Source of the DNA: Blastocatellia bacterium
GTDB taxonomy: Bacteria; Acidobacteriota; Blastocatellia; Pyrinomonadales; Pyrinomonadaceae
Assembly (NCBI GenBank): GCA_003168335.1
Contig: PMSM01000012.1
Location: forward strand, 62,001-126,000
DNA: 64,000 nucleotides
Reading direction: 5' to 3'
This document shows, one piece after another, positions 37,771-50,349 of the stretch. The stretch's first letter is position 1. Each line of letters starts with the position of its first letter. A model generated the notes under the pieces. That model ran no database searches and had not been told where the DNA came from. It saw only the letters and a list, made by a program, of their open reading frames with translations. The translations under genes and the position numbers were made by a program.

Positions 37771-39759
<1,989 letters not shown>

Positions 39760-39879: not shown

Positions 39880-40074
39880 ATGAGCATTCAGGAACTAATA
39901 GAAAAAGAGGTCGCCAGTTTGCCCGAGAATCTTCAACGCGAGGTTTACACCTTCGCGCGGTTTCTCCGCGAGCAGTCCCGGGATAACTCATTCAACGGCC
40001 TTCTGCTCAGCGAGTCTGTGCTGAGCAAAGAGTGGAATACCCCTGAGGAAGATGCTGCATGGGCAAATCTATAG
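39880..40074 (+). CDS. DUF2281-type small protein, antitoxin-like
   Basis: 64 residues: MSIQELIEKEVASLPENLQR, then EVYTFARFLREQSR, then LLLSESVLSKEWNTPEEDAA. The first helix pair is the DUF2281 pattern (lP..lq.EvldFieFL), and the LSESVLxxxWxxPEEDxAW tail is common in antitoxins paired with PIN or ParE toxins. No toxin follows; a HicBA pair begins 65 bases later instead. So it is either an orphan antitoxin or has a regulatory role. Confidence 0.75.
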   Translation: MSIQELIEKEVASLPENLQREVYTFARFLREQSRDNSFNGLLLSESVLSKEWNTPEEDAAWANL

Positions 40075-40139
40075 TCGGGAAGCCGATTTGCAAGAACAAA
40101 CCAGTACTATGGTGGTAGTATTTGGGTCAAGGAGTGACC

Positions 40140-40364
40140 ATGGAATCGCAAAAGATAATTATTGAAAAACATACCGATGGTTATGTTGCTTATCCTCTCG
40201 GCCTCAAAGGCGTAGTTGTCGGTCAGGGCGATACCTACGACGATGCACTCGCTGATGTTGAGTCCGCGATTCGCTTTCACATCGAAGCGTTTGGGAACGA
40301 GGTTTTCGAGAGCGACTCTCCTGTGCTGGAAGTGTTTGTTGCTGAGACCAAAGTGGCAGCCTAG
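40140..40364 (+). CDS. hicB: HicB-family antitoxin
   Basis: 74 residues from ATG 40140 with AAGGAG upstream. IIIEKHTDGYVAYPLGLKGV followed by VVGQGDTYDDALADVESAIR and FHIEAFG is the HicB partial RNase-H-like fold (.y.a.cp.lpgv...GdT.eEAl.ni.eAi..). No C-terminal ribbon-helix-helix is present, so DNA binding may rely on another factor. The stop TAG shares one base with the GTG of hicA, giving tight coupling in antitoxin-first order. Confidence 0.9.
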   Translation: MESQKIIIEKHTDGYVAYPLGLKGVVVGQGDTYDDALADVESAIRFHIEAFGNEVFESDSPVLEVFVAETKVAA

Positions 40365-40603
40365 TGGTCAAATTCCCAGTAGACGCGCCCAAAAACAAAG
40401 TGGTTAAGGCGCTCGCCCTGCTCGGGTTCAGAGTTGTGCGCGAGCGCGAACACATTGCGATGGTGCGCTACAATTCCGACGGAACACGGACTCCTCTGAC
40501 GATTCCTAATCACACGCGAATCAAGGGCTCTACTTTGCGCATCATCTGTACACAATCGGGAATCTCGCGGGCCGAGTTTTTGAAGGCTTACGAGCAGAGC
40601 TAA
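40364..40603 (+). CDS. hicA: HicA-family mRNA interferase toxin
   Basis: 79 residues from a GTG start overlapping the hicB stop. KVVKALALLGFRVVREREHI followed by AMVRYNSDGTRTPLTIPNHT and LRIICTQSGISRAEFLKAY is the HicA double-stranded-RNA-binding-like fold. The catalytic His is His30 (EREH), and NHTRIKGSTLR is the usual second block. It should cleave mRNA unless held by HicB. The terminator-like hairpin at 40691-40722 closes the unit. Confidence 0.9.
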   Translation: MVKFPVDAPKNKVVKALALLGFRVVREREHIAMVRYNSDGTRTPLTIPNHTRIKGSTLRIICTQSGISRAEFLKAYEQS

Positions 40604-40743: not shown

Positions 40744-43053
40744 CTACAGCATTGACGGAGCTTCAGCCGGTGTCTGGCTGGTGATTTGATAGATTGCTTC
40801 CATCACTGCCGAGCGCACTTCCGGCGGCAGCGATCCGCGCACGGCCATCCGGCGAAACGCGGGCAGAATATCCGGCTGACCGCTCAGCGCTACCAGCTTG
40901 ACCACCGCGAGTCGCACTTCGAGATTCGCGTGTTCTTCGATGGCCCGCATCAACGGCTGGGTTTCGCCGGCCTTCGACATCAGAAACAGCAGCGAGAAGG
41001 CATCGTAAGTTTTATCACGACTTTCGCCGGTAAGATTCCTGATCGCTTCGTTGGCCAATCCCGAGGAAGCTATGGCTGACCCGATTTTGCGACGTCGTTC
41101 CGGAGTTGCTTCGCGCAACGCCCGGGTGAAAGCGGCCGCGCGATCCTCCTGGAGGTCAAACATTGCGCGAGCGGCGGCGCCGCGGACTTCAACCGACTGA
41201 TCGTCAAAGGCAGCACTGATACGGCGAAAAGCGTCCTCACCACCAAAGCGTGGCAGGCCACTGACCGCGGCGGCGCGCTCGGTTGGTTTCTCACTGGCGA
41301 GCTGGCGCAATATGCCCGATGAAAGACCGGCCGCTTCAGGCACGAAATTACTTTCCGGCACGCTGACCGGTGCAAACTCTCCGGCTGCATCATCCTGCAT
41401 CGTTCCGAATTGATCGTCGGGCAAAGTCAGCGGCGCCGCGGTTTCAACCGCCTGTCCCTGGTCGCGATTTTCGCCGCCTACGTCGAACCACTCGGCGATC
41501 TCGGTGACATTTGAACTTTCGGTGTGGAATGACGGCGGCTCATCAGCCTCCGCACGCTCAATCTCGAAAATGAATTCGGGTGGAGCCTGGGCCTTCGCGG
41601 CTTCTTCGGCCACAACGCGCTCGTGTTCAGCATGATGACGCGCGGCTTCCGCCTCCTGGCGCTCGGCTTCTTCCGCCCGGATCTTGGTTTCGATTTCGGC
41701 CCGTATGCGAGCCTCAAGTTCGGTGCGCTGGCGAATTTCTGCTGCGGCCCTCAACCGGCTCTCTTCTTCTGTCTGTAGTCGGGCCTGCACTTCTGCCTGA
41801 CGGCGTGCTTCCTCTGCTGCTTTCAGGCGAGCTGCTTCCTCAGCCTGACGGCGGGCTGCCTGATCAGCACGACGCTGCGCTTCTTCTTCCGCCTGACGGC
41901 GAGCATGCTCAGCCGCTAGTCTCTGGGCTTCCTCTTCTGCCCGGCGTCGAGCCTCTTCCTCGGCCTGTCGACGCGTTTCCTCCTCAGCCTTGCGTCGCTC
42001 CGCAGCTTCCGCGCGCATCTGCGCTTCGATCTCGGCGCGCAAGCGCGCTTCTTCTTCCGCCCGGCTCAGGGCCTCGGCTTCAGCCTTGCGGCGCGCGTCC
42101 TCTTCAGCGCGACGACGAGCGGCGTCTTCCGCCAATCGTTGCGATTCTGCAGCGGCCTTGCCGCGCGCGTCCTCGCGAGCTTGCACGCGTTCGATCTCTT
42201 CTGCTACCGCCCGGAATCTCATCTCTGCCCGGCGACGCAACTCATCTTCCTGAGATTTCTTCCGCGCTTCTGTTTCCAGATAGTGCCGCTCTTGTTCGGC
42301 GCGGCGGTGGGCATGTCCTGCCTCTGCCTGGCGCAGAGTTTCCAACTCGGCTTCGTGCGCTTTCTGTGCCGCCATCATCTGCGCGTCCATTTCAGTGCGG
42401 CGAGCTTCCTCCATTGCGCGCATACGTTTCACTTCCTCTTCCGCGCGCGTCAATTCGTGTTCGCCGATCTGGCGGCGATGTTCTTCCTCGGCGCGTTCAC
42501 GAGCTTCGACTTCGATTCGCTGCTTTTCCTGCTCAGCGCGATGACGGGCGGTTGACTCTTCCATCTGGCGCCAGCGTTCCTGTTCGGTCCGCAAAGTGTT
42601 TTCCGCCGCGAGGCGCGCTGCCTCTACCTCGGCCCGGCGACCTTCTTCGTCCGTGCGCAGGCTCATCAGCTCGGTTTCCAACTGGGTGATCTCTTCGGCG
42701 GTGCTGGCCGCGACGGTCGCATCTTCAACCTGGGTTGCAGATGTCATTGCCGGCGCTTCGAAAGCGGCTTCGGCAAACTCGGGCGCGGGTGACGTAACCT
42801 TAGGCGCAGTAGGCGCGAGCTTAGCGGAGGGCGACACGGGTTCAGGAGCTTCGCTCACCGCAGCACTTGGTCCGGCTCCGGTTTGTTCAGCCTTCAGAAT
42901 CTGGAGAAGTTCGGCCTTGTGCGCCGACAGCGCACTGCGCAGATCTTGAGTGATGGTGCCCTTCGGCGCATCGATGACCAGGCGATCGTCGCCGGAGGTT
43001 TTCACCTCGACGCCCTTTTCGCGGAGTTGGGAAAGCAAATCATGGGCTGTCAT
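40744..43053 (-). CDS. TubC-type docking domain + long charged coiled coil + HEAT repeats
   Basis: 769 residues, three parts. (1) Residues 1-55, TAHDLLSQLREKGVEVKTSG then VIDAPKGTITQDLRSALSAH KAELL, match the TubC N-terminal docking domain, normally a protein-protein connector of NRPS/PKS lines. (2) About 120-490 is an almost pure Arg/Ala/Glu coiled coil (RRQAEEEARRRAEEEAQRLA). (3) About 590-765 are HEAT repeats (FRRISAAFDDQSVEVRGAAA; TYDAFSLLFLMSKAGETQPL). No signal or membrane helix, so cytosolic. Its ATG overlaps the stop of the previous gene by 4 bases. A scaffold role is inferred; no NRPS genes are near. Confidence 0.85.
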   Translation of the reverse strand: MTAHDLLSQLREKGVEVKTSGDDRLVIDAPKGTITQDLRSALSAHKAELLQILKAEQTGAGPSAAVSEAPEPVSPSAKLAPTAPKVTSPAPEFAEAAFEAPAMTSATQVEDATVAASTAEEITQLETELMSLRTDEEGRRAEVEAARLAAENTLRTEQERWRQMEESTARHRAEQEKQRIEVEARERAEEEHRRQIGEHELTRAEEEVKRMRAMEEARRTEMDAQMMAAQKAHEAELETLRQAEAGHAHRRAEQERHYLETEARKKSQEDELRRRAEMRFRAVAEEIERVQAREDARGKAAAESQRLAEDAARRRAEEDARRKAEAEALSRAEEEARLRAEIEAQMRAEAAERRKAEEETRRQAEEEARRRAEEEAQRLAAEHARRQAEEEAQRRADQAARRQAEEAARLKAAEEARRQAEVQARLQTEEESRLRAAAEIRQRTELEARIRAEIETKIRAEEAERQEAEAARHHAEHERVVAEEAAKAQAPPEFIFEIERAEADEPPSFHTESSNVTEIAEWFDVGGENRDQGQAVETAAPLTLPDDQFGTMQDDAAGEFAPVSVPESNFVPEAAGLSSGILRQLASEKPTERAAAVSGLPRFGGEDAFRRISAAFDDQSVEVRGAAARAMFDLQEDRAAAFTRALREATPERRRKIGSAIASSGLANEAIRNLTGESRDKTYDAFSLLFLMSKAGETQPLMRAIEEHANLEVRLAVVKLVALSGQPDILPAFRRMAVRGSLPPEVRSAVMEAIYQITSQTPAEAPSML

Positions 43054-44840
43054 AGTTCGATCACCTCGCGTTCAGTTTCTATGGGATGTGAAGAAGGTAC
43101 AGGAGTGGTCTCGGCAGGATTACTCGGAGCTGCGACTGATGGGACTCTTTCAGGGCCAGCGGTGGCGCAGGCTTCGATAGCGTTTTTAATCAAGGTGCGC
43201 GGCACCTTTCGATCGTTTTCGGTTTGCATCAACGAATTCAACGCACCGATAGCGGCCGGGTCTCGCAAATCCATCAGTGCCTCAACCGCGGTGCGCCGCA
43301 CATCGGGAGATGGATCGTCAAGCGCTCCGATCAAATGCGGCGTCGCTTCGCGATCATGAACAAAGCTGAGCCGGCGCGCTGCGGCGGCGCGTTCATTTTC
43401 CGAGTCGGCGATCCGCAGGTCGCGCGTAGCGTCGTCAAAGTAGCCATGCTTCATGAAAGCAGCCCGGGCGTTTTCGCGACGCGCTACATTTCTACCGACG
43501 ATCCCCGAAAGCAATTCGGCGCCGACTAACTGCCGAGTTTCGCGATCAGCCGATCCGATTACGCCTTCGTCATAGTCTGCGCCGTTCATCAAGTTCCTGG
43601 CTGCTTCCGTGGCTCGTGCGATTCGCTCGCGGCGTGGATCTTGATTGGGCGAGGGCGAAGCGGCGGCGTCCGCCAAGGGTGTCGCGGCCTCAACCGCTTC
43701 TTTGGGCTTAGCGGCTACGGCCATCACTCCGGCGACAGCGGCTGCTTGGGCCACAGTTGGAGTAATCACCGACGCGGGTCCTGATTCCGATGCGGGCTGA
43801 ACACCGGGTGCGGCATCAGTCTTAGTCCTGGTTGATTTGATAAGGCCGGATCGCGCGGGCGCAGACGCCTTAACGCGCCGCCGTTGAAACAGAAACAGTG
43901 CGATTAGCAGCAAGAGCACAACGATGCCAATGGCGACCGGGACGGGATTGAGCTGAGCCAACAGAATCCAATAGTTAATGCGCTCTTTCATCCGGCCCCA
44001 CCAATCTTGCCGCGATTGATTCGTCGCCGGCACCGGAGTTGACTGAGTTGTAGGCGACGCTACGGCTGTAGATAAAGATTTCTGTGCCGGTGTGGGCGCC
44101 GGGATCTTTGCTGTCGGCGAGGGCAGGGGTGACGGGAGGGGCGTCGCGACTGCTCTTGATCCGGAATTCGAAGCCAAAGTTGTGGCCGGGGCGGTTTTGC
44201 CGGTTGAGTTGGAATTGCCGCCGTTGCGCGCACTTGACGAATTGGATCGATCGGCAGAATTTTTATTGGCTGACGATGAAGGGAGCGTTGAAGCATTGCG
44301 CTTATTGGCATTCGCATTTCGGTTCGAATCAGGACCTTTTACCGAGCGCGGAAGGTCTCGGCCCGCGCTCGATGCATTTGAAGAGCTGCCACCCGCGACG
44401 GTGAACACAACATCGAGCCGGTTTGAACGCTGCTCGACGCGCGCGGTTGCGCCCGGCTGGAGTCGAAAAGAAACGACAGTGCTATCGCCGCTGCGCTGCG
44501 CTTTTACATCGGCAAAACCGCGGCCTCGAATTGCGTCGGTGCGTGGTACCTCGGCGGCCGGAATCTTGACATAGAAACGATCGCCGCGACGATACGCCTC
44601 ATAGTCGTTCAAAGACTGATCTGAATTGAGCGCAACGCGTGATCCCTCGGGCGAATCGCTGGAACGTAGAGTGGCGACATGTTGCCGTTTTCCCGGGCCG
44701 CTGGAATTCGTTGGCGCAGGCGGTTTGGTGATCCGGCCTTGCGCGGCCACCAGGGCAGCGCCAAGCAGGAAAACTATGCTGTATCTCAAAACCGAGGACG
44801 AGGCTCTGGCACAGCGGGGCGATTGGTTCATCGTCTTCAT
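43050..44840 (-). CDS. AMIN-like domain + membrane helix + HEAT repeats
   Basis: About 596 residues from ATG 44840 (a TTG 12 bases earlier is also open). A leader segment (VLRYSIVFLLGAALVAAQG) precedes an AMIN-like beta domain at about 55-150 (GSRVALNSDQSLNDYEAYRR; FYVKIPAAEV; VVSFRLQPGATARVEQRSNR). A Ser/Asn/Pro-rich linker follows, then a membrane helix (VPVAIGIVVLLLLIALFLFQ) and, on the other side, HEAT repeats (HLIGALDDPSPDVRRTAVEA; ALMDLRDPAAIGALNSLM). The layout suggests an outside sensing or peptidoglycan-binding part and an inside HEAT scaffold. It overlaps the downstream gene by 4 bases. Confidence 0.83.
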   Translation of the reverse strand: MKTMNQSPRCARASSSVLRYSIVFLLGAALVAAQGRITKPPAPTNSSGPGKRQHVATLRSSDSPEGSRVALNSDQSLNDYEAYRRGDRFYVKIPAAEVPRTDAIRGRGFADVKAQRSGDSTVVSFRLQPGATARVEQRSNRLDVVFTVAGGSSSNASSAGRDLPRSVKGPDSNRNANANKRNASTLPSSSANKNSADRSNSSSARNGGNSNSTGKTAPATTLASNSGSRAVATPLPSPLPSPTAKIPAPTPAQKSLSTAVASPTTQSTPVPATNQSRQDWWGRMKERINYWILLAQLNPVPVAIGIVVLLLLIALFLFQRRRVKASAPARSGLIKSTRTKTDAAPGVQPASESGPASVITPTVAQAAAVAGVMAVAAKPKEAVEAATPLADAAASPSPNQDPRRERIARATEAARNLMNGADYDEGVIGSADRETRQLVGAELLSGIVGRNVARRENARAAFMKHGYFDDATRDLRIADSENERAAAARRLSFVHDREATPHLIGALDDPSPDVRRTAVEALMDLRDPAAIGALNSLMQTENDRKVPRTLIKNAIEACATAGPERVPSVAAPSNPAETTPVPSSHPIETEREVIEL

Positions 44841-44876
44841 CAATTGGGGCAACCCTAACGAAAAACCTTCAGAACA

Positions 44877-46637
44877 TCAGAGGGAATTATGCAACGACAT
44901 TGCGCCGTTGTCACTTGGGGTTAAATCAAAAACCGACTGCTCTTGATCCAATTTGTACATAACTTCGAGCATCGCGGTGCGGACATTCTCGGGCAGGTCC
45001 TGGCCGCTGACCATCTCGCGCAGCTTTGGCGCCAAGTCCGGCTGCGCGGCTACGTTCAAGACGCGAATTGCGCACAGCCGCACCTCGTCATCTTTGTGGT
45101 TTTGGATTGCGTCCAGAATCGGTTGCGTTTCATTCGCTTTGGCCAGCAACGAGAAGAGCGAGAAGGCTTCATACGCCTGGTGTCGATCCTCGCTGGCGAG
45201 GCGATCTACTGCCTGAGCGACGATTCCGGTTTTGACGCACGCCTGAGCTACTTCGCGCATAGTATCGGCATCGGCAGTTTCCATTACGCGCACGTAGGCG
45301 TCCGCGCGATCGAAGTGAAAACTGGTCAAAGTGCGCGCGGCGGCTGCGCGAACTTCGCGAGAGTCGTCGGCGAGCGCGATGAGCACGGTGGCGAATACCG
45401 ATTCGTGATCTATTGACCCGAGTCCGGTGACCGCCGCTGAGCGGATGCCCGAATCCGGATCGTTGAGGGCCATCGACGAAAGCGCCGCGACCGAACGCTG
45501 CACTGGATGCGCCGCGAGTTCATGGATAACCTCCGCGCGCACGTGTTCATCAGCACTTGTAAGCCTGGTCAACGTCTCTGTTAACGTGGCGTCGTCATTT
45601 CCTGCCGGCAGATCTTCAAAAGCCGGGAAAGCTCCCAGTTCGGGAAGACTTGAGCTGGAGCTGCCAGCGGCCAGCAACCCTGGGTCAGAAGACGGCGCAT
45701 CGAGATAACCGAGACTTTCCACCGAACACGCACTCAAGGTTTCACTCAAGAGCGACGCGGGGATATCCGGATGCCGTCGCGCGATATCGAGTAAGGCGCC
45801 GATCGCGGCCGGCATTTTGAGTTCGCCCAGGCTGGATATGGCCTGGTTGCGTACGACTGAATCCTGGTCATGCAATGCTTCGATGAGGAACGTAAGCGAG
45901 CTTTGCGATCCGATTTGGCCAATGGTTCGCGCTGCCGAAGAACGTTCCCAGGCGTCGCGACCCATTAACATCATCGCGCTCTGGCGAGCGACAAACCCGT
46001 ATTCTTCGAGGGCCTGACGTGCTCGTCGTCGGCCGTCTTCGCCGGTGTCGGAAGAATCCAGGGCTTTGACTAATGAGGCTTCGATGGCCCGACGGTCGTC
46101 GCCGGCACGCGAGGCCATCACGTCCATCCGGTGCGCCTTGCCCACGACCAGCTTTCCAACTTCCTGATCGATCCGATACGCGCCATAGACGGACGGCTCG
46201 ACCTCGACAAGATGTGGCTTCTCCCACTGTTGATTTCCTTCAATAGCAGGGGCGCGGTGTTCGACGAAGGCTGCAGCCTCGGCCGACCCGCGAACGGACG
46301 TCGGAAGAGTACTCTCCGGACGAACTGTTCGGCCCGTGGCCTTCACTGGCTCGGCAACATCGATCCACTCTTTGGAGGGGCGGGTCTTTTTGTAGATGAT
46401 CAGACCGATCAGCATCAACACCATGATAGGTGTGATTACATAGGGCGAGAAGAACGACCAATCGTCTGATGTCGCCGCCTGGATGGCCGCATGGGCAGTG
46501 CCCGACGCACCCAGAAGTAGAAACGCAGTGGCCAGCAAAGCGAATATCGCTCGTGGCGTCTGGCGTAGGGTTGGGGTTGGGGTTGGATTCTGATTTGGCA
46601 TGACTTTCACCATTCTGCTTCGAAGCTTTTCGGTCAT
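44877..46637 (-). CDS. Membrane-anchored HEAT-repeat protein
   Basis: 586 residues; Met13 (MPNQNPTPTPTLRQ) is a plausible alternative start that gives a cleaner signal segment (AIFALLATAFLLLGASGTAH). A second helix (YVITPIMVLMLIGLIIYKKT) anchors a large cytosolic part. HEAT repeats fill about 220-310 (TIGQIGSQSSLTFLIEALHD; QDSVVRNQAISSLGELKMPA) and about 360-570 (HPVQRSVAALSSMALNDPDS; QAYEAFSLFSLLAKANETQP). The last block aligns by eye with the C-terminus of the 40744-43053 protein, so the two share ancestry. It starts 94 bases after the response regulator ends. Confidence 0.85.
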   Translation of the reverse strand: MTEKLRSRMVKVMPNQNPTPTPTLRQTPRAIFALLATAFLLLGASGTAHAAIQAATSDDWSFFSPYVITPIMVLMLIGLIIYKKTRPSKEWIDVAEPVKATGRTVRPESTLPTSVRGSAEAAAFVEHRAPAIEGNQQWEKPHLVEVEPSVYGAYRIDQEVGKLVVGKAHRMDVMASRAGDDRRAIEASLVKALDSSDTGEDGRRRARQALEEYGFVARQSAMMLMGRDAWERSSAARTIGQIGSQSSLTFLIEALHDQDSVVRNQAISSLGELKMPAAIGALLDIARRHPDIPASLLSETLSACSVESLGYLDAPSSDPGLLAAGSSSSSLPELGAFPAFEDLPAGNDDATLTETLTRLTSADEHVRAEVIHELAAHPVQRSVAALSSMALNDPDSGIRSAAVTGLGSIDHESVFATVLIALADDSREVRAAAARTLTSFHFDRADAYVRVMETADADTMREVAQACVKTGIVAQAVDRLASEDRHQAYEAFSLFSLLAKANETQPILDAIQNHKDDEVRLCAIRVLNVAAQPDLAPKLREMVSGQDLPENVRTAMLEVMYKLDQEQSVFDLTPSDNGAMSLHNSL

Positions 46638-46731
46638 ACGTGGCGTGATTGCCTGAGAAGTTGTCCGGGAGCTAAATACGGAATTAGACTTTTCGGTTGA
46701 TTATGCCCGGTGAGAAGGCGAGGGCTGCTTT

Positions 46732-47511
46732 CTATTCTGCGTCGGTGAATTTATATCCGATGCCCCAGACGGTGAGCACCAACTGGGGGTTATCAGGATT
46801 CTCTTCGATCTTTGCTCGCAGGCGATTGATGTGGGAATCAATCGTCCGGTCGTATCCTTCGTAGGAGTAATCCCAGATCTTCTCGAGCAGGTACTTGCGC
46901 GGGAAAACGCGTCCGGGATTTCCAGCAAACAGACGCAATAGATCAAATTCCTTGGGCGTCAGTTCTACCTGTCGTTCTGCGATCGTCACTTCACGTCTGA
47001 CAGGGTCGACGCGCAGGTTGCCGCGGACGATCGGTGTTTCGTCTTTGCCGTCACCGCTCACCACGGCTGCGCGGGCCCGTCGCAGCACAGACTTGATGCG
47101 TGCTTCGACCTCGCGCAAGCTGAACGGCTTGGTGATGTAATCGTCGGCGCCCATTTCCAGGCCCAGAACTTTGTCGACTACATCATCCTTGGCAGTGAGC
47201 ATGAGAATTGGCATTTGAGGGTTCTTCTGTCGTAACTCCTTACATACTGCCAGACCGTCCATCTTTGGCAGCATCAGATCCAGGACGACCACATCCGGAC
47301 GGCCTTTTTCTGCAGCCTCGATCCCAGCGATTCCGTCGGGTGCGGAACTTACTGCATAGCCCGCTCTCGAGAAATACTCCTCGATAGCAGTCGAGATATT
47401 GTCATCGTCTTCAATGATCAGGAGCGAGGTTTTTGGTGCGGGCGCGGCAGCGACTCCTGCGGCGTCCAATGAGTGAGAGTTGTCCTTCTCCCCATTCGTT
47501 CTATTCAACAT
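46732..47511 (-). CDS. OmpR/PhoB-family response regulator, no kinase nearby
   Basis: 259 residues. A 28-residue leader precedes the receiver domain: acidic pair in LLIIEDDDN (from 30), phosphoacceptor Asp78 in VVVLDLMLPKMDG, Thr106 in LMLTAKDD and Lys128 in YITKPFS. The C-terminal winged helix is typical OmpR: VELTPKEFDLLRLFAGNPGR, VFPRKYLLEKIWDYSYEGYD and RTIDSHINRLRAKIEENPDN. No histidine kinase is within the window on either side. It is the first gene of the minus-strand run with three HEAT proteins, so it may control them or receive input from them. Confidence 0.95.
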   Translation of the reverse strand: MLNRTNGEKDNSHSLDAAGVAAAPAPKTSLLIIEDDDNISTAIEEYFSRAGYAVSSAPDGIAGIEAAEKGRPDVVVLDLMLPKMDGLAVCKELRQKNPQMPILMLTAKDDVVDKVLGLEMGADDYITKPFSLREVEARIKSVLRRARAAVVSGDGKDETPIVRGNLRVDPVRREVTIAERQVELTPKEFDLLRLFAGNPGRVFPRKYLLEKIWDYSYEGYDRTIDSHINRLRAKIEENPDNPQLVLTVWGIGYKFTDAE

Positions 47512-47742: not shown

Positions 47743-50349
47743 TCAAGAAGCCGGTTTCGCAGGAGCCAGCTTCGCGCGCAGACGAGTTTCGAATCCCGAA
47801 ATGGCCCCGACTATCTGTGGTGAAGTGCCGGCCTTCTTGCTTAACTCCTGGAATAATGCCAGACCCCGTTCGTCACCCAGGGAGACGAGGGCTTCGGCGG
47901 CGCCAAAGAGCAATCCAAAATTACGTTTTTCCAAACCCTCAGTCGCCGCGGCACTGAGAAGCGGAAATACGCGTGGATCATCTTTGCCCGCGGTTCCAAG
48001 CAGCGTGAGTGCAGCCCCACGCACTCCCACGCGATTACCAACCGCGTAATACTTAAGAGCCAGATCCAGAGCGCGCTTGTCGCCCAGCGCCGCCAATCCG
48101 CTCAGCGCCGAAGCCCTGATCGTGTCACGCCACGAAGGCGCGTCGATCAGCTTGATCAGAGAATCGTAAGCGCCGGGGCTCTTGGTTTGACCTAAAGCGA
48201 CTGCCGCCGCTCGGATGACGGCATAACTCTGATCATTTAGTAACTGCTGGTAGGTGTCGGCAAGTCCGGCATCTTTCGTGGCTGCGAGCGCGTTAACCGC
48301 CCTGGCGCGCACCCGCGCGTCTGCATCTTTGGTCGCGGCCAGCAAAGCATCCTTTGCCTCTTTGAGACCAGTGAGCGAGGCGGCTGCCTCCAGCCGCGTT
48401 CCCCAGAACTGATCCTTCGTCAGCGTGTCGCTGATCGACTTGATTATCACCAGCCGGTCGGCGCCGGTAGTCTTGCCATCGCTCATCCGCAGCGCCAGCT
48501 GTTGCAGGGCCCAGACGCGGCCCAGCACATCCTGATCGTGGGCCAGTTGATACTGCAACTGCCCTGTCGTCTTGACGAACACCAGCTCTTTGATCAGGGT
48601 GCCGCCGTAATCGAAGCCCACCAACAATGGCTCGGAATCGACGGCGAACTTGAACGTCTGTTCTTCCTTCGGCGCGATACTCACACGGTCGACGCGAGTG
48701 CTCGACGCCGTCCCGATTTCGATGTCCACGGGAGTTTGAAACAAAGCGACCTGCGGATATTGCGAGTCCGGATCGGGCCGCTGCTCTTGCCTGACGTTCA
48801 AGGTTAGTTCTTTCTTCGCGGCGTCATAGTCCTGGGTAACCCGAAAGACTGGATGGCCCATTTTGTAGAGCCATTCGTCAAAGAACCAATCCATCGGCTG
48901 TCCGGTAGTCTCCTCGATGGCGATACGAAACTGCGCGGTTTCAACCGGCTGATGCGCGTACTTCGTCAGGTAATGATTGATCGAGCGCCACCAGTTGTCC
49001 TCGCCCAGGTACGTACGCAGCATGTGCAACACGGCGCCGCCGCGCGGATAGGCGTAGGTATCAAAGACTGCATCGGGGTTCGCGTAGTTTTTGGTCACGA
49101 TAGGCCGGCGCTGTCCGCGGCTCCACGCCTGGTAGTACTGGTCCTGATTCGATTTCACATCGCTATATAAGAAATCGTCGTGGCTCAGACTATGCTCGTC
49201 CCACATCGCCTGGAAGTAGGTGGCGAAACTTTCATTGAGCCAGATGTCCGACCAGTTGCGGCAAGTCAGGAAATCACCGAACCATTGGTGCGCGAGTTCG
49301 TGAGATTGCAGACCGTCGCTCGTGGCATCCAGCTCGGTGCGCTTATCGTGAATCATGTTGTCGGTTTGCGTGGTCGCGCTGATGTTCTCCATGCCGCCAC
49401 CAAAGTCGCGCACCGTCGTCTGGGCATACTTGGCGTAGGGATATTTCACGCCGGTCTTTTCAGAGAAGAACTTGACCATCTCGGGCAAGCGCGCGGCCGT
49501 GACTTTTCCTTCTTCAATTTCGTTCTTGTAAACGTTAGTGATGACCGGAATGCCCGCATACTCACCAGTGACGGGCGCAAACTCGCCCACGATGATCGAG
49601 GTGAGATAAGTCGCGTGCGGGTCGTCAATCTTCCAGTCATACGTGCGCGTGCCGTCTGAATTCTCTTTTACTGAGATCAGTTTGCCGTTGGAAACCACGC
49701 TGAGAGGCTTCTCAACCGTCGCGATTATTTCTGACGACGCAAAATCGTTTGGATGATCGAAGGAAGGGAACCACTGGTGGTTTGTCTCAGCCTCGCCCTG
49801 CGACCAAATCTGGCGCGGGCGGGTTGGATCGTCTGGTCGGGGCTTAATAAAATTCAGTCCGCCACCGCCGATCAAAGATGCCCGATCGGGGGGCGGCCGG
49901 TTCGTGTGGTAAGAGATGACCACAGTGAGTTCCTCGGCCGGCTGGTAGGCGCGGTCAAGCAGAACCGAAAGTTTTTCCTTGGTGGCGTCGTATTCGAATT
50001 TAAGCGGCGTCCCCGATTTCAGCGCAGCTCCGGACACAGTCATGAAGGCGGCGTCGAAATCTACCCGGCGCAAGTCCTTGACGACGGGAGCCAGCGTGAT
50101 CGCCGCCGTCCCAATTGCCTGCTCCTGATCCCAGTCAAAGCGGAGATCAAGCTTGATGTTTCGTTGATCGTAATCGTGCGGCGGTATGTACTGCGGCGGT
50201 GGCAGCGGGTGGCTGGCGCGCCGCGCCGGCGATTGCGGTGTCGGCGTGGGCGTAGGTTGGGCGAAGCCGGCGGGTGCGACAACACACAAGAAGGCTAAGG
50301 CCAGGAACAACTTCGTCGCTGCTCTTCCAAATTGGTCACGTGGTTGCAT
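47743..50349 (-). CDS. M1-family zinc aminopeptidase with C-terminal HEAT repeats
   Basis: 868 residues. A signal peptide (LFLALAFLCVVAPAGFAQ) predicts export. The N-terminal beta domain starts at about 50. GGMEN (318-322) is the exopeptidase motif, HELAH (350-354) with Glu373 in NESFA forms the zinc site, and a proton-donor Tyr region follows (ANPDAVFDTYAYPRGGAVLH). After about 620 the chain turns into HEAT repeats (DALLAATKDADARVRARAVN; YQQLLNDQSYAVIRAAAVAL), replacing the usual ERAP1-like C-terminal domain. It trims N-terminal residues from peptides outside the cytoplasm. Single gene. Confidence 0.94.
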   Translation of the reverse strand: MQPRDQFGRAATKLFLALAFLCVVAPAGFAQPTPTPTPQSPARRASHPLPPPQYIPPHDYDQRNIKLDLRFDWDQEQAIGTAAITLAPVVKDLRRVDFDAAFMTVSGAALKSGTPLKFEYDATKEKLSVLLDRAYQPAEELTVVISYHTNRPPPDRASLIGGGGLNFIKPRPDDPTRPRQIWSQGEAETNHQWFPSFDHPNDFASSEIIATVEKPLSVVSNGKLISVKENSDGTRTYDWKIDDPHATYLTSIIVGEFAPVTGEYAGIPVITNVYKNEIEEGKVTAARLPEMVKFFSEKTGVKYPYAKYAQTTVRDFGGGMENISATTQTDNMIHDKRTELDATSDGLQSHELAHQWFGDFLTCRNWSDIWLNESFATYFQAMWDEHSLSHDDFLYSDVKSNQDQYYQAWSRGQRRPIVTKNYANPDAVFDTYAYPRGGAVLHMLRTYLGEDNWWRSINHYLTKYAHQPVETAQFRIAIEETTGQPMDWFFDEWLYKMGHPVFRVTQDYDAAKKELTLNVRQEQRPDPDSQYPQVALFQTPVDIEIGTASSTRVDRVSIAPKEEQTFKFAVDSEPLLVGFDYGGTLIKELVFVKTTGQLQYQLAHDQDVLGRVWALQQLALRMSDGKTTGADRLVIIKSISDTLTKDQFWGTRLEAAASLTGLKEAKDALLAATKDADARVRARAVNALAATKDAGLADTYQQLLNDQSYAVIRAAAVALGQTKSPGAYDSLIKLIDAPSWRDTIRASALSGLAALGDKRALDLALKYYAVGNRVGVRGAALTLLGTAGKDDPRVFPLLSAAATEGLEKRNFGLLFGAAEALVSLGDERGLALFQELSKKAGTSPQIVGAISGFETRLRAKLAPAKPAS

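Follow-up and report, generated by a model that had tools for sequence, protein, structure and literature searches.

In this study, two overlapping minus-strand genes of a Blastocatellia bacterium were analyzed in a window of 64,000 nt (assembly GCA_003168335.1, contig PMSM01000012.1), which belongs to a genome of 5.16 Mb; all coordinates are numbered within this window. The two open reading frames (ORFs), 43050–44852 and 40744–43053, appear to be two halves of one scaffold chain. Sequence comparison makes it very probable that a docking pair, consisting of a β-hairpin docking domain (bHD) and a short linear motif (SLiM), re-joins this split periplasm-to-cytosol scaffold outside any megasynthase. 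Docking domains of the bHD type are usually taken as marks of natural-product assembly lines. Among relatives the chain is split or fused, a TubC_N docking domain lies at the cut, the tail of the upstream protein is constant and specific, and the charges of domain and tail co-vary.

The chain would consist of a periplasmic AMIN-like domain, a transmembrane (TM) segment, a cytosolic HEATa block, a long charged stretch and a HEATb block. Translation of the halves is probably coupled via an ATGA overlap. The tail EREVIEL would extend the β-hairpin of TubC_N in the downstream protein by one more strand, and docking would in this way hold the cytosolic part at the membrane part. By analogy with published docking pairs of non-ribosomal peptide synthetases (NRPS), the two halves are expected to bind each other. 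The re-joined protein would work like the fused one, as an envelope-linked scaffold produced together with, and perhaps under, a response regulator. HEAT blocks are usual protein-binding surfaces. The features of the two halves were as follows (lengths in amino acids, aa).

43050..44852, minus strand: upstream half, comprising the AMIN-like domain, TM, HEATa and the SLiM at the C-terminus, 600 aa
44394..44687, minus strand: AMIN-like domain, about residues 56–153 (AF2 model and fold search)
43887..43943, minus strand: transmembrane segment, residues 304–322 (hydropathy)
43158..43610, minus strand: HEATa block, about residues 415–565 (Pfam HEAT_2 at 483–550; conserved block)
43053..43073, minus strand: C-terminal docking peptide (SLiM) EREVIEL (sequence comparison of tails)
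43050..43053, minus strand: ATGA, overlap of stop and start codons
40744..43053, minus strand: downstream half, comprising TubC_N, the charged stretch and HEATb, 769 aa
42892..43041, minus strand: TubC_N/β-hairpin docking domain, residues 5–54 (Pfam, model, fold search, PDB profile)
41569..42696, minus strand: E/A/R-rich charged stretch (helix-like by composition; TolA matches below cut-off)
40759..41325, minus strand: HEATb block, residues 577–765 (Pfam; alignment)

Split and fused forms of the chain

The AMIN/HEATa protein was matched in 33 of 119 genomes of the family at an E-value of 1e-8, and the system is not family-wide. In 11 genomes (G020, G015, G025, G080, G079, G023, G012, G008, G138, G139, and G078), AMIN-TM-HEATa-linker-HEATb was a single ORF of 937–1392 aa. 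No TubC_N was found at the locus in these 11 genomes; G025 and G080 carry one elsewhere. In 10 genomes, including that of the window, the chain was encoded by two ORFs, and the downstream protein began with TubC_N. The two genes overlapped by ATGA at all 10 split loci. The chain was cut after HEATa (site B, order HEATa > TubC_N > HEATb) in seven genomes, comprising six of the window's own genus and G011, and between TM and HEATa (site A, order TubC_N > HEATa > HEATb) in G014, G128, and G034. Six of the seven own-genus genomes were usable, the contig of G001 stopping inside the gene for HEAT1, the HEAT protein encoded next to the chain.

TubC_N occurred in 14 of the 119 family genomes, and 10 of these 14 were the split loci. 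The other four domains belonged to NRPS loci (G025 and G133) and to primase/helicase-type loci (G121 with DUF3631/Toprim; G080 with AAA_25). Every split genome had a single TubC_N (10/10), always at the cut. The fused relatives serve as natural controls: cut chains have the docking pair, and whole chains lack it. The number of independent split lineages was small, two to four.

Three candidates for a split without TubC_N were rejected and left out of the fused count. In G007 and G123 the reading could be followed further after a change of frame, either across the linker or starting within HEATa, and both are probably fused genes carrying a frameshift; G140 was set aside because the match contains stops. 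In G137, G017, and G030, AMIN and HEATa lay in one ORF and the contig ended before HEATb.

The charged E/R/A-rich stretch had about 370 residues in the window and about 900 in G014 (L045:6938–11470). Judged by composition, it might form a long single helix and not a coiled coil. Several fused relatives (L048, L050, L053, L054, and L056) had an A/P/E-rich linker in its place, as seen by eye. A paralogue of 1254 aa (G000:C13:372117–372662; L057:8109–11873) consisted of a HEATa-like fragment recognized by eye, a charged stretch and HEATb. It had no AMIN hit, TM or TubC_N, lay in a different neighbourhood, and relatives of it occurred in a further five genomes of the genus (L058–L062).

About three separate insertions of the docking pair are moderately favoured over one ancestral split with re-fusions. 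In the concatenated tree of six parts (37 rows), the fused state flanked the split genes on either side. The split G011 grouped among the fused G020, G008, and G137, with support below 95 on some branches. Placing the site-B genes in one clade was rejected with p = 0.04 (gene) and p = 2.6e-6 (concatenation), and placing sites A and B in one clade was rejected with p = 0.003 when G123 was left out. A value of p = 2e-76 for the latter was discarded, as it was driven by G123 sitting among the site-A rows. The competing history, in which a single ancestral split with the docking pair was later re-fused several times and the pair moved once across HEATa, is possible but less probable, and it would leave docking unaffected. 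The closeness of the TubC_N domains speaks for it. By bit score, used as a simple ranking, the own-genus domains matched that of G011 at 54–63 bits, and the three site-A domains matched one another at 73–80 bits. However, a domain linked to DUF3631 (L154) matched the own-genus domains at 56–64 bits, above G011 in three of six rows, and an NRPS-side domain (L123) reached 49–57 bits. The TubC_N tree was nearly without resolution, with one of 23 branches starred and only four split rows. The cut lies on differing sides of HEATa under either history.

Docking domain and C-terminal tail

At residues 5–54 of the downstream half, the TubC_N profile (PF18563) scored 48 bits, well above its cut-off of 26 (E = 1.3e-12). 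The model had the elements H3–12, E16–20, E24–28, H36–44, and H46–59. The top ten Foldseek matches in the PDB were all bHDs, namely EpoB, AerJ, Kj12A/B/C, 6CGO (Bamb_5915), TubC, and the Kj12C-Kj12B complex. The TubC-type docking domain proposed at this N-terminus was thus borne out by profile and fold. In the passages describing bHD pairing in a review (PMC9113145), the partner is a SLiM with fewer than 15 residues that ends the upstream subunit. The domain in the window was likewise N-terminal on the downstream protein, and a matching C-terminal SLiM was found on the upstream protein. According to the passages on the published complex (PMC6195595), the tail pairs with β2 (24–28) through its five final residues, Leu-Arg-Gly-Glu-Ile, salt bridges form between R24 and E(−1) and between E28 and R(−3), and the last residue is buried. 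The affinity given for Kj12 in that paper is 8 µM. Strand 24–28 of the window domain, placed as β2, bears R24 and D28. R24, L25, and D28 (window numbering) were present in all eight aligned TubC_N domains of split loci. The partner of the docking domain is likely the C-terminal tail encoded by the gene immediately upstream.

The upstream protein ended in [DE]REV[IF]E[LI]-COOH at all 10 split loci, with R at −5, E at −1, and L or I at 0. Among the six own-genus genomes, mean pairwise identity was 79% in HEATa, 21% in the linker, and 88% in the last seven residues; the linker comprised 30–43 residues including the tail. In the site-A genomes the tail lay 83–101 residues past the TM helix. An ending of RE..E[LI] was found in 12 of 602 closed ORFs of the fetched loci, which were the 10 split loci and two NRPS proteins (L077 and L110) sitting directly upstream of TubC_N. 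The back-translated motif followed by TGA, MGNGARGTNWTYGARHTNTGA, occurred at 12 places in the 119 whole genomes. Ten were split loci; the other two, in G111 and at a second place in G004, did not end in ATGA. The reversed control pattern occurred once. Among 30 overlaps of the ATGA, GTGA or TTGA type, the motif was present in 12 of 14 with TubC_N downstream and in 0 of 16 others (p = 1e-6), or in 5/7 against 0/16 with lineages collapsed (p = 6e-4). The 602 ORFs and the 30 overlaps came from a greedy ORF picker, and some frames are doubtful.

The charges of domain and tail were compared in 38 of 59 loci of the phylum, giving 33 pairs with the own genus counted once. The other 21 loci were dropped, either because a partner overlapping by 4 nt was missing or because the residue in front of A-P, here called residue 28, could not be read. 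An acidic residue 28 was accompanied by R or K at −5 in 12 of 15 pairs, compared with 2 of 18 otherwise (p = 9e-5); with the HEAT pairs removed, the counts were 7/10 and 2/18 (p = 0.003). A basic residue 28 was accompanied by D or E at −3 in 10/13 pairs against 6/20 (p = 0.013; p = 0.067 with the HEAT pairs removed). Two mis-anchored rows were kept, L088, in which the true residue is also D, and L128, a wrong row of the type with an acid and no R. L116, L122, and L138, in which the upstream frame is probably wrong, were also kept. The pattern is what physical contact would be expected to give, and it agrees with the published charge reversal.

Several points weigh against docking of the two halves. 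The model of TubC_N had a moderate pLDDT of 73.6, and the E-values of its fold matches were 0.003–0.09, which is modest, as can be expected of so small a domain. The charge statistics ignore kinship of the pairs beyond the collapsed own genus. Two of the 14 TubC_N pairs in the family carried other tails. The relatives include draft metagenome-assembled genomes (MAGs), in which broken genes are expected. The arginine of the tail lies at −5 and that of Kj12B at −3, so the register or the partner of D28 may differ from the published complex. Finally, GAG-GT of the tail, encoding E at −4 and V at −3, was invariant at 10/10 loci, and NRPS condensation domains were present elsewhere in 9 of the 10 split genomes. 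The last two points are also the basis of two other explanations.

In the first, the tail is a translation signal only: a Shine-Dalgarno-like GAGGT plus a final A forced by ATGA, with conservation of the peptide as a by-product. GAGGT lies about 10 nt before the downstream ATG, REV is encoded as CGN GAG GTN, and GAGGT could be the Shine-Dalgarno site of that ATG. Tail conservation may for this reason be partly at the RNA level, and a partial constraint of this kind is likely. As the whole explanation it is improbable. The 16 other overlaps, some with doubtful ORFs, never carried the motif, and the charge of the tail co-varies with the docking domain. The arginine of the motif and its last three positions, that is R(−5), I/F(−2), E(−1), and L/I(0), lie outside GAGGT and were kept through synonymous changes: R was CGC, CGT or CGG, V used all four codons, E(−1) was GAA or GAG, and the last codon was CTA, TTA or ATA. 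In the second, TubC_N serves another partner, for example by self-association of the charged-stretch protein (the N-terminal docking domain of TubC is described as dimeric in the relevant passage of PMC6195595) or on an NRPS elsewhere, and its place at the cut is incidental; this is very unlikely given the single TubC_N per split genome, always at the cut, and the matching tail on the neighbouring protein. The genome of the window had one condensation domain, on another contig, and none was found in the split genome G005. Since G005 has the docking pair, an NRPS is unlikely to be the main partner. Docking between the two halves of the scaffold chain is preferred.

Membrane topology, locus and gene order

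The earlier note had described four consecutive minus-strand ORFs in 40744–47511, a regulator followed by three HEAT proteins, and the coordinates and order agreed with the ORF list, as did the ATGA overlap of the final two ORFs, which share the 4 nt at 43050–43053. The remaining features of the locus were as follows.

46732..47511, minus strand: OmpR-type response regulator (receiver and winged helix), 259 aa (Pfam Response_reg and Trans_reg_C)
44877..46637, minus strand: HEAT1, membrane HEAT protein, 586 aa (Pfam HEAT_2, hydropathy, homologues)
47743..50349, minus strand: neighbour, M1 aminopeptidase with C-terminal HEAT repeats (Pfam)
37771..39759, minus strand: neighbour, taken to be uvrB by its sequence

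The OmpR-type assignment of the first gene was confirmed by its two Pfam domains; no NCBIfam model reached its cut-off among the best 25 of 105. HEAT_2 was above cut-off in all three HEAT proteins. The C-terminal blocks of the first and third, said to align by eye, did so with 37% identity over 177 residues (E = 2.2e-30). By hydropathy, HEAT1 has two hydrophobic stretches, the upstream half has one strong TM at residues 304–322, and the TubC_N protein has none, matching the proposed membrane, membrane, and cytosolic placing. Within 15 residues of the TM, five K/R followed it and two preceded it; because of this excess, the C-terminus of the upstream half is probably cytosolic. Its ORF is listed with a TTG start, and the true start is unsure. 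A signal-like N-terminal stretch was seen in homologues and was below threshold in the window protein. The reading as a membrane-to-cytosol HEAT scaffold with a true docking domain was upheld.

The AMIN-like call on the upstream half failed by sequence and held by fold. Pfam did not detect AMIN (PF11741) in the whole window protein, the gathering score not being reached; in homologous domains it matched weakly in 3 of 24 (best E 0.022), and a sequence profile of the domain against PDB gave nothing useful. The AF2 model had eight strands and a pLDDT of 77. It matched PilQ entries (3jc8, Z 13.5; 4aqz, 11.4; 4av2, 11.3), AmiC (4bin, Z 13.0, root-mean-square deviation 1.9 over 96 residues), and a Synechocystis protein (5h3k, Z 12.7). 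The next unrelated fold, small heat-shock proteins, followed at Z 8.5. We take the PilQ and AmiC entries to carry AMIN domains, and chain Qa of 3jc8 to be PilQ. The fold is therefore common to these AMIN-domain proteins and the window domain (Z 11.3–13.5). Unlike PilQ and AmiC, the window protein had no secretin or amidase family, and Pfam AMIN was unmatched. An envelope-sensing role via this domain, suggested by knowledge of the family, is possible but less probable than not.

Gene maps were drawn for 31 genomes picked for carrying parts of the system; the 29 named relatives are MAGs. A first scan of the genome contigs with HEAT1 found nothing, and the HEATb alignment used as query found 29 loci. 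As far as the genes were present, the order M1 > response regulator > HEAT1 > AMIN > HEATa > HEATb > uvrB was kept and co-oriented in 31/31, so that the core order, whose conservation had been set as a test in the earlier note, is conserved. The regulator preceded HEAT1 in all 28 mapped genomes where both were found; it might control the genes of the scaffold or receive input from it, as the earlier note proposed. M1 was upstream in 15/31 and uvrB downstream in 20/31. The misses were partly due to contig ends; others reflect absence from the sampled stretch (for instance M1 in G014 and G020; uvrB in G023). The M1 aminopeptidase may or may not belong to the locus unit.

HEAT1 has 586 aa in the window and is about 800–900 aa in most other genera. 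In several of these it starts with its own AMIN-like domain (in G020, by eye), which suggests that HEAT1 is paralogous to the second chain. The earlier picture of three HEAT proteins, each with a front end of its own, is better read as two related chains, HEAT1 and the AMIN-TM-HEATa-linker-HEATb chain that is split in the window's genus. In G027 and G136 a short AMIN-HEATb protein was found and HEAT1 was absent.

Ten further ORFs were scanned, seven on one side and three on the other. No histidine kinase was found among them, the scan covering these ORFs and not the rest of the genome. They also contained no carrier, condensation or other biosynthetic domain and no megasynthase gene, in line with the proposed lack of biosynthetic genes nearby. 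Between uvrB and the TubC_N gene, two small plus-strand ORFs (40122–40603) resembled by eye a HicB-HicA toxin-antitoxin pair, preceded by an ORF of 64 aa (39880–40074). In genus g9 (L104, L106, and L107), some genomes held other genes and a short HEATb protein between regulator and uvrB; in L106 these genes encoded one protein with TPR, one with DUF4388 and a third of 526 aa that Pfam did not match. In G034, an ORF of 1427 aa (L052:13749–18032) lay between the split HEAT genes and uvrB.

Docking pairs in other systems

TubC_N was found in 33 of 396 genomes sampled in the phylum, at 47 places, four of them below cut-off. Among the pairs fetched, the upstream partners besides NRPS and polyketide synthases (PKS) were of the primase-helicase type: DUF3631 (L108, L125, L127, L135, L136, and L154), DUF3987 (L124), DUF927 just above cut-off (L119 and L150), and AAA_25 (L089 and L131). 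These proteins are presumably plasmid or phage replication proteins. Their ORFs overlapped by 4 nt with a downstream protein of about 100–206 aa that starts with TubC_N. Several of their tails matched the docking motif or ended in W-G-E-V/I, and near copies of the HEAT tail were GDREVFEL (L125), NEREVFEI (L154), PREVIEL (L150), and PKREIFKL (L124). The upstream ORFs of L132 and L130 matched no Pfam family. In these primase-helicase/small-protein pairs, the docking pair seems to serve a second purpose outside biosynthesis.

There is about an even chance that SLiM-stop/ATGA-bHD is a portable gene-splitting cassette, inserted repeatedly at different points of the linker of a structural protein and also used as a primase-helicase connector. 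Antibiotic assembly lines would then be a single instance of a plug-and-socket connector that joins divided proteins in general. If binding is confirmed, the system would give a natural precedent for protein splitting by docking tags, a supply of new tag pairs, a testable charge code between residue 28 and the tail, and a caution against calling every TubC_N an NRPS.

In the titles, abstract openings and passages of open-licence literature consulted, no bHD/SLiM pair outside biosynthesis was described. The review PMC9113145, in the passages concerned, counts more than 1400 docking pairs, and the neighbouring domains it names there are all biosynthetic. The closest known system is the bHD/SLiM pairs of NRPS and PKS-NRPS (TubC, EpoB, Kj12ABC, Bamb_5915/5917, and AerJ). 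Unlike these, the window pair links a membrane protein (AMIN-like/TM/HEAT) to a protein made of a charged stretch and HEAT repeats, lacks carrier, condensation and cyclisation domains as well as any other biosynthetic domain, and has fused homologues without the docking pair. An engineered split is also comparable. As described by Kegler and Bode in 2020 (PMC7496407), an NRPS was cut artificially by imported docking elements with stop and start codons, the halves still cooperated, and translational coupling was proposed; one of the two pairs used, txlAB, is of the bHD/SLiM type (passages of PMC6195595 and PMC9113145). In both systems one chain is cut in two by docking elements. The engineered split is artificial and inside an NRPS, whereas the window split is natural and lies in a non-biosynthetic protein.

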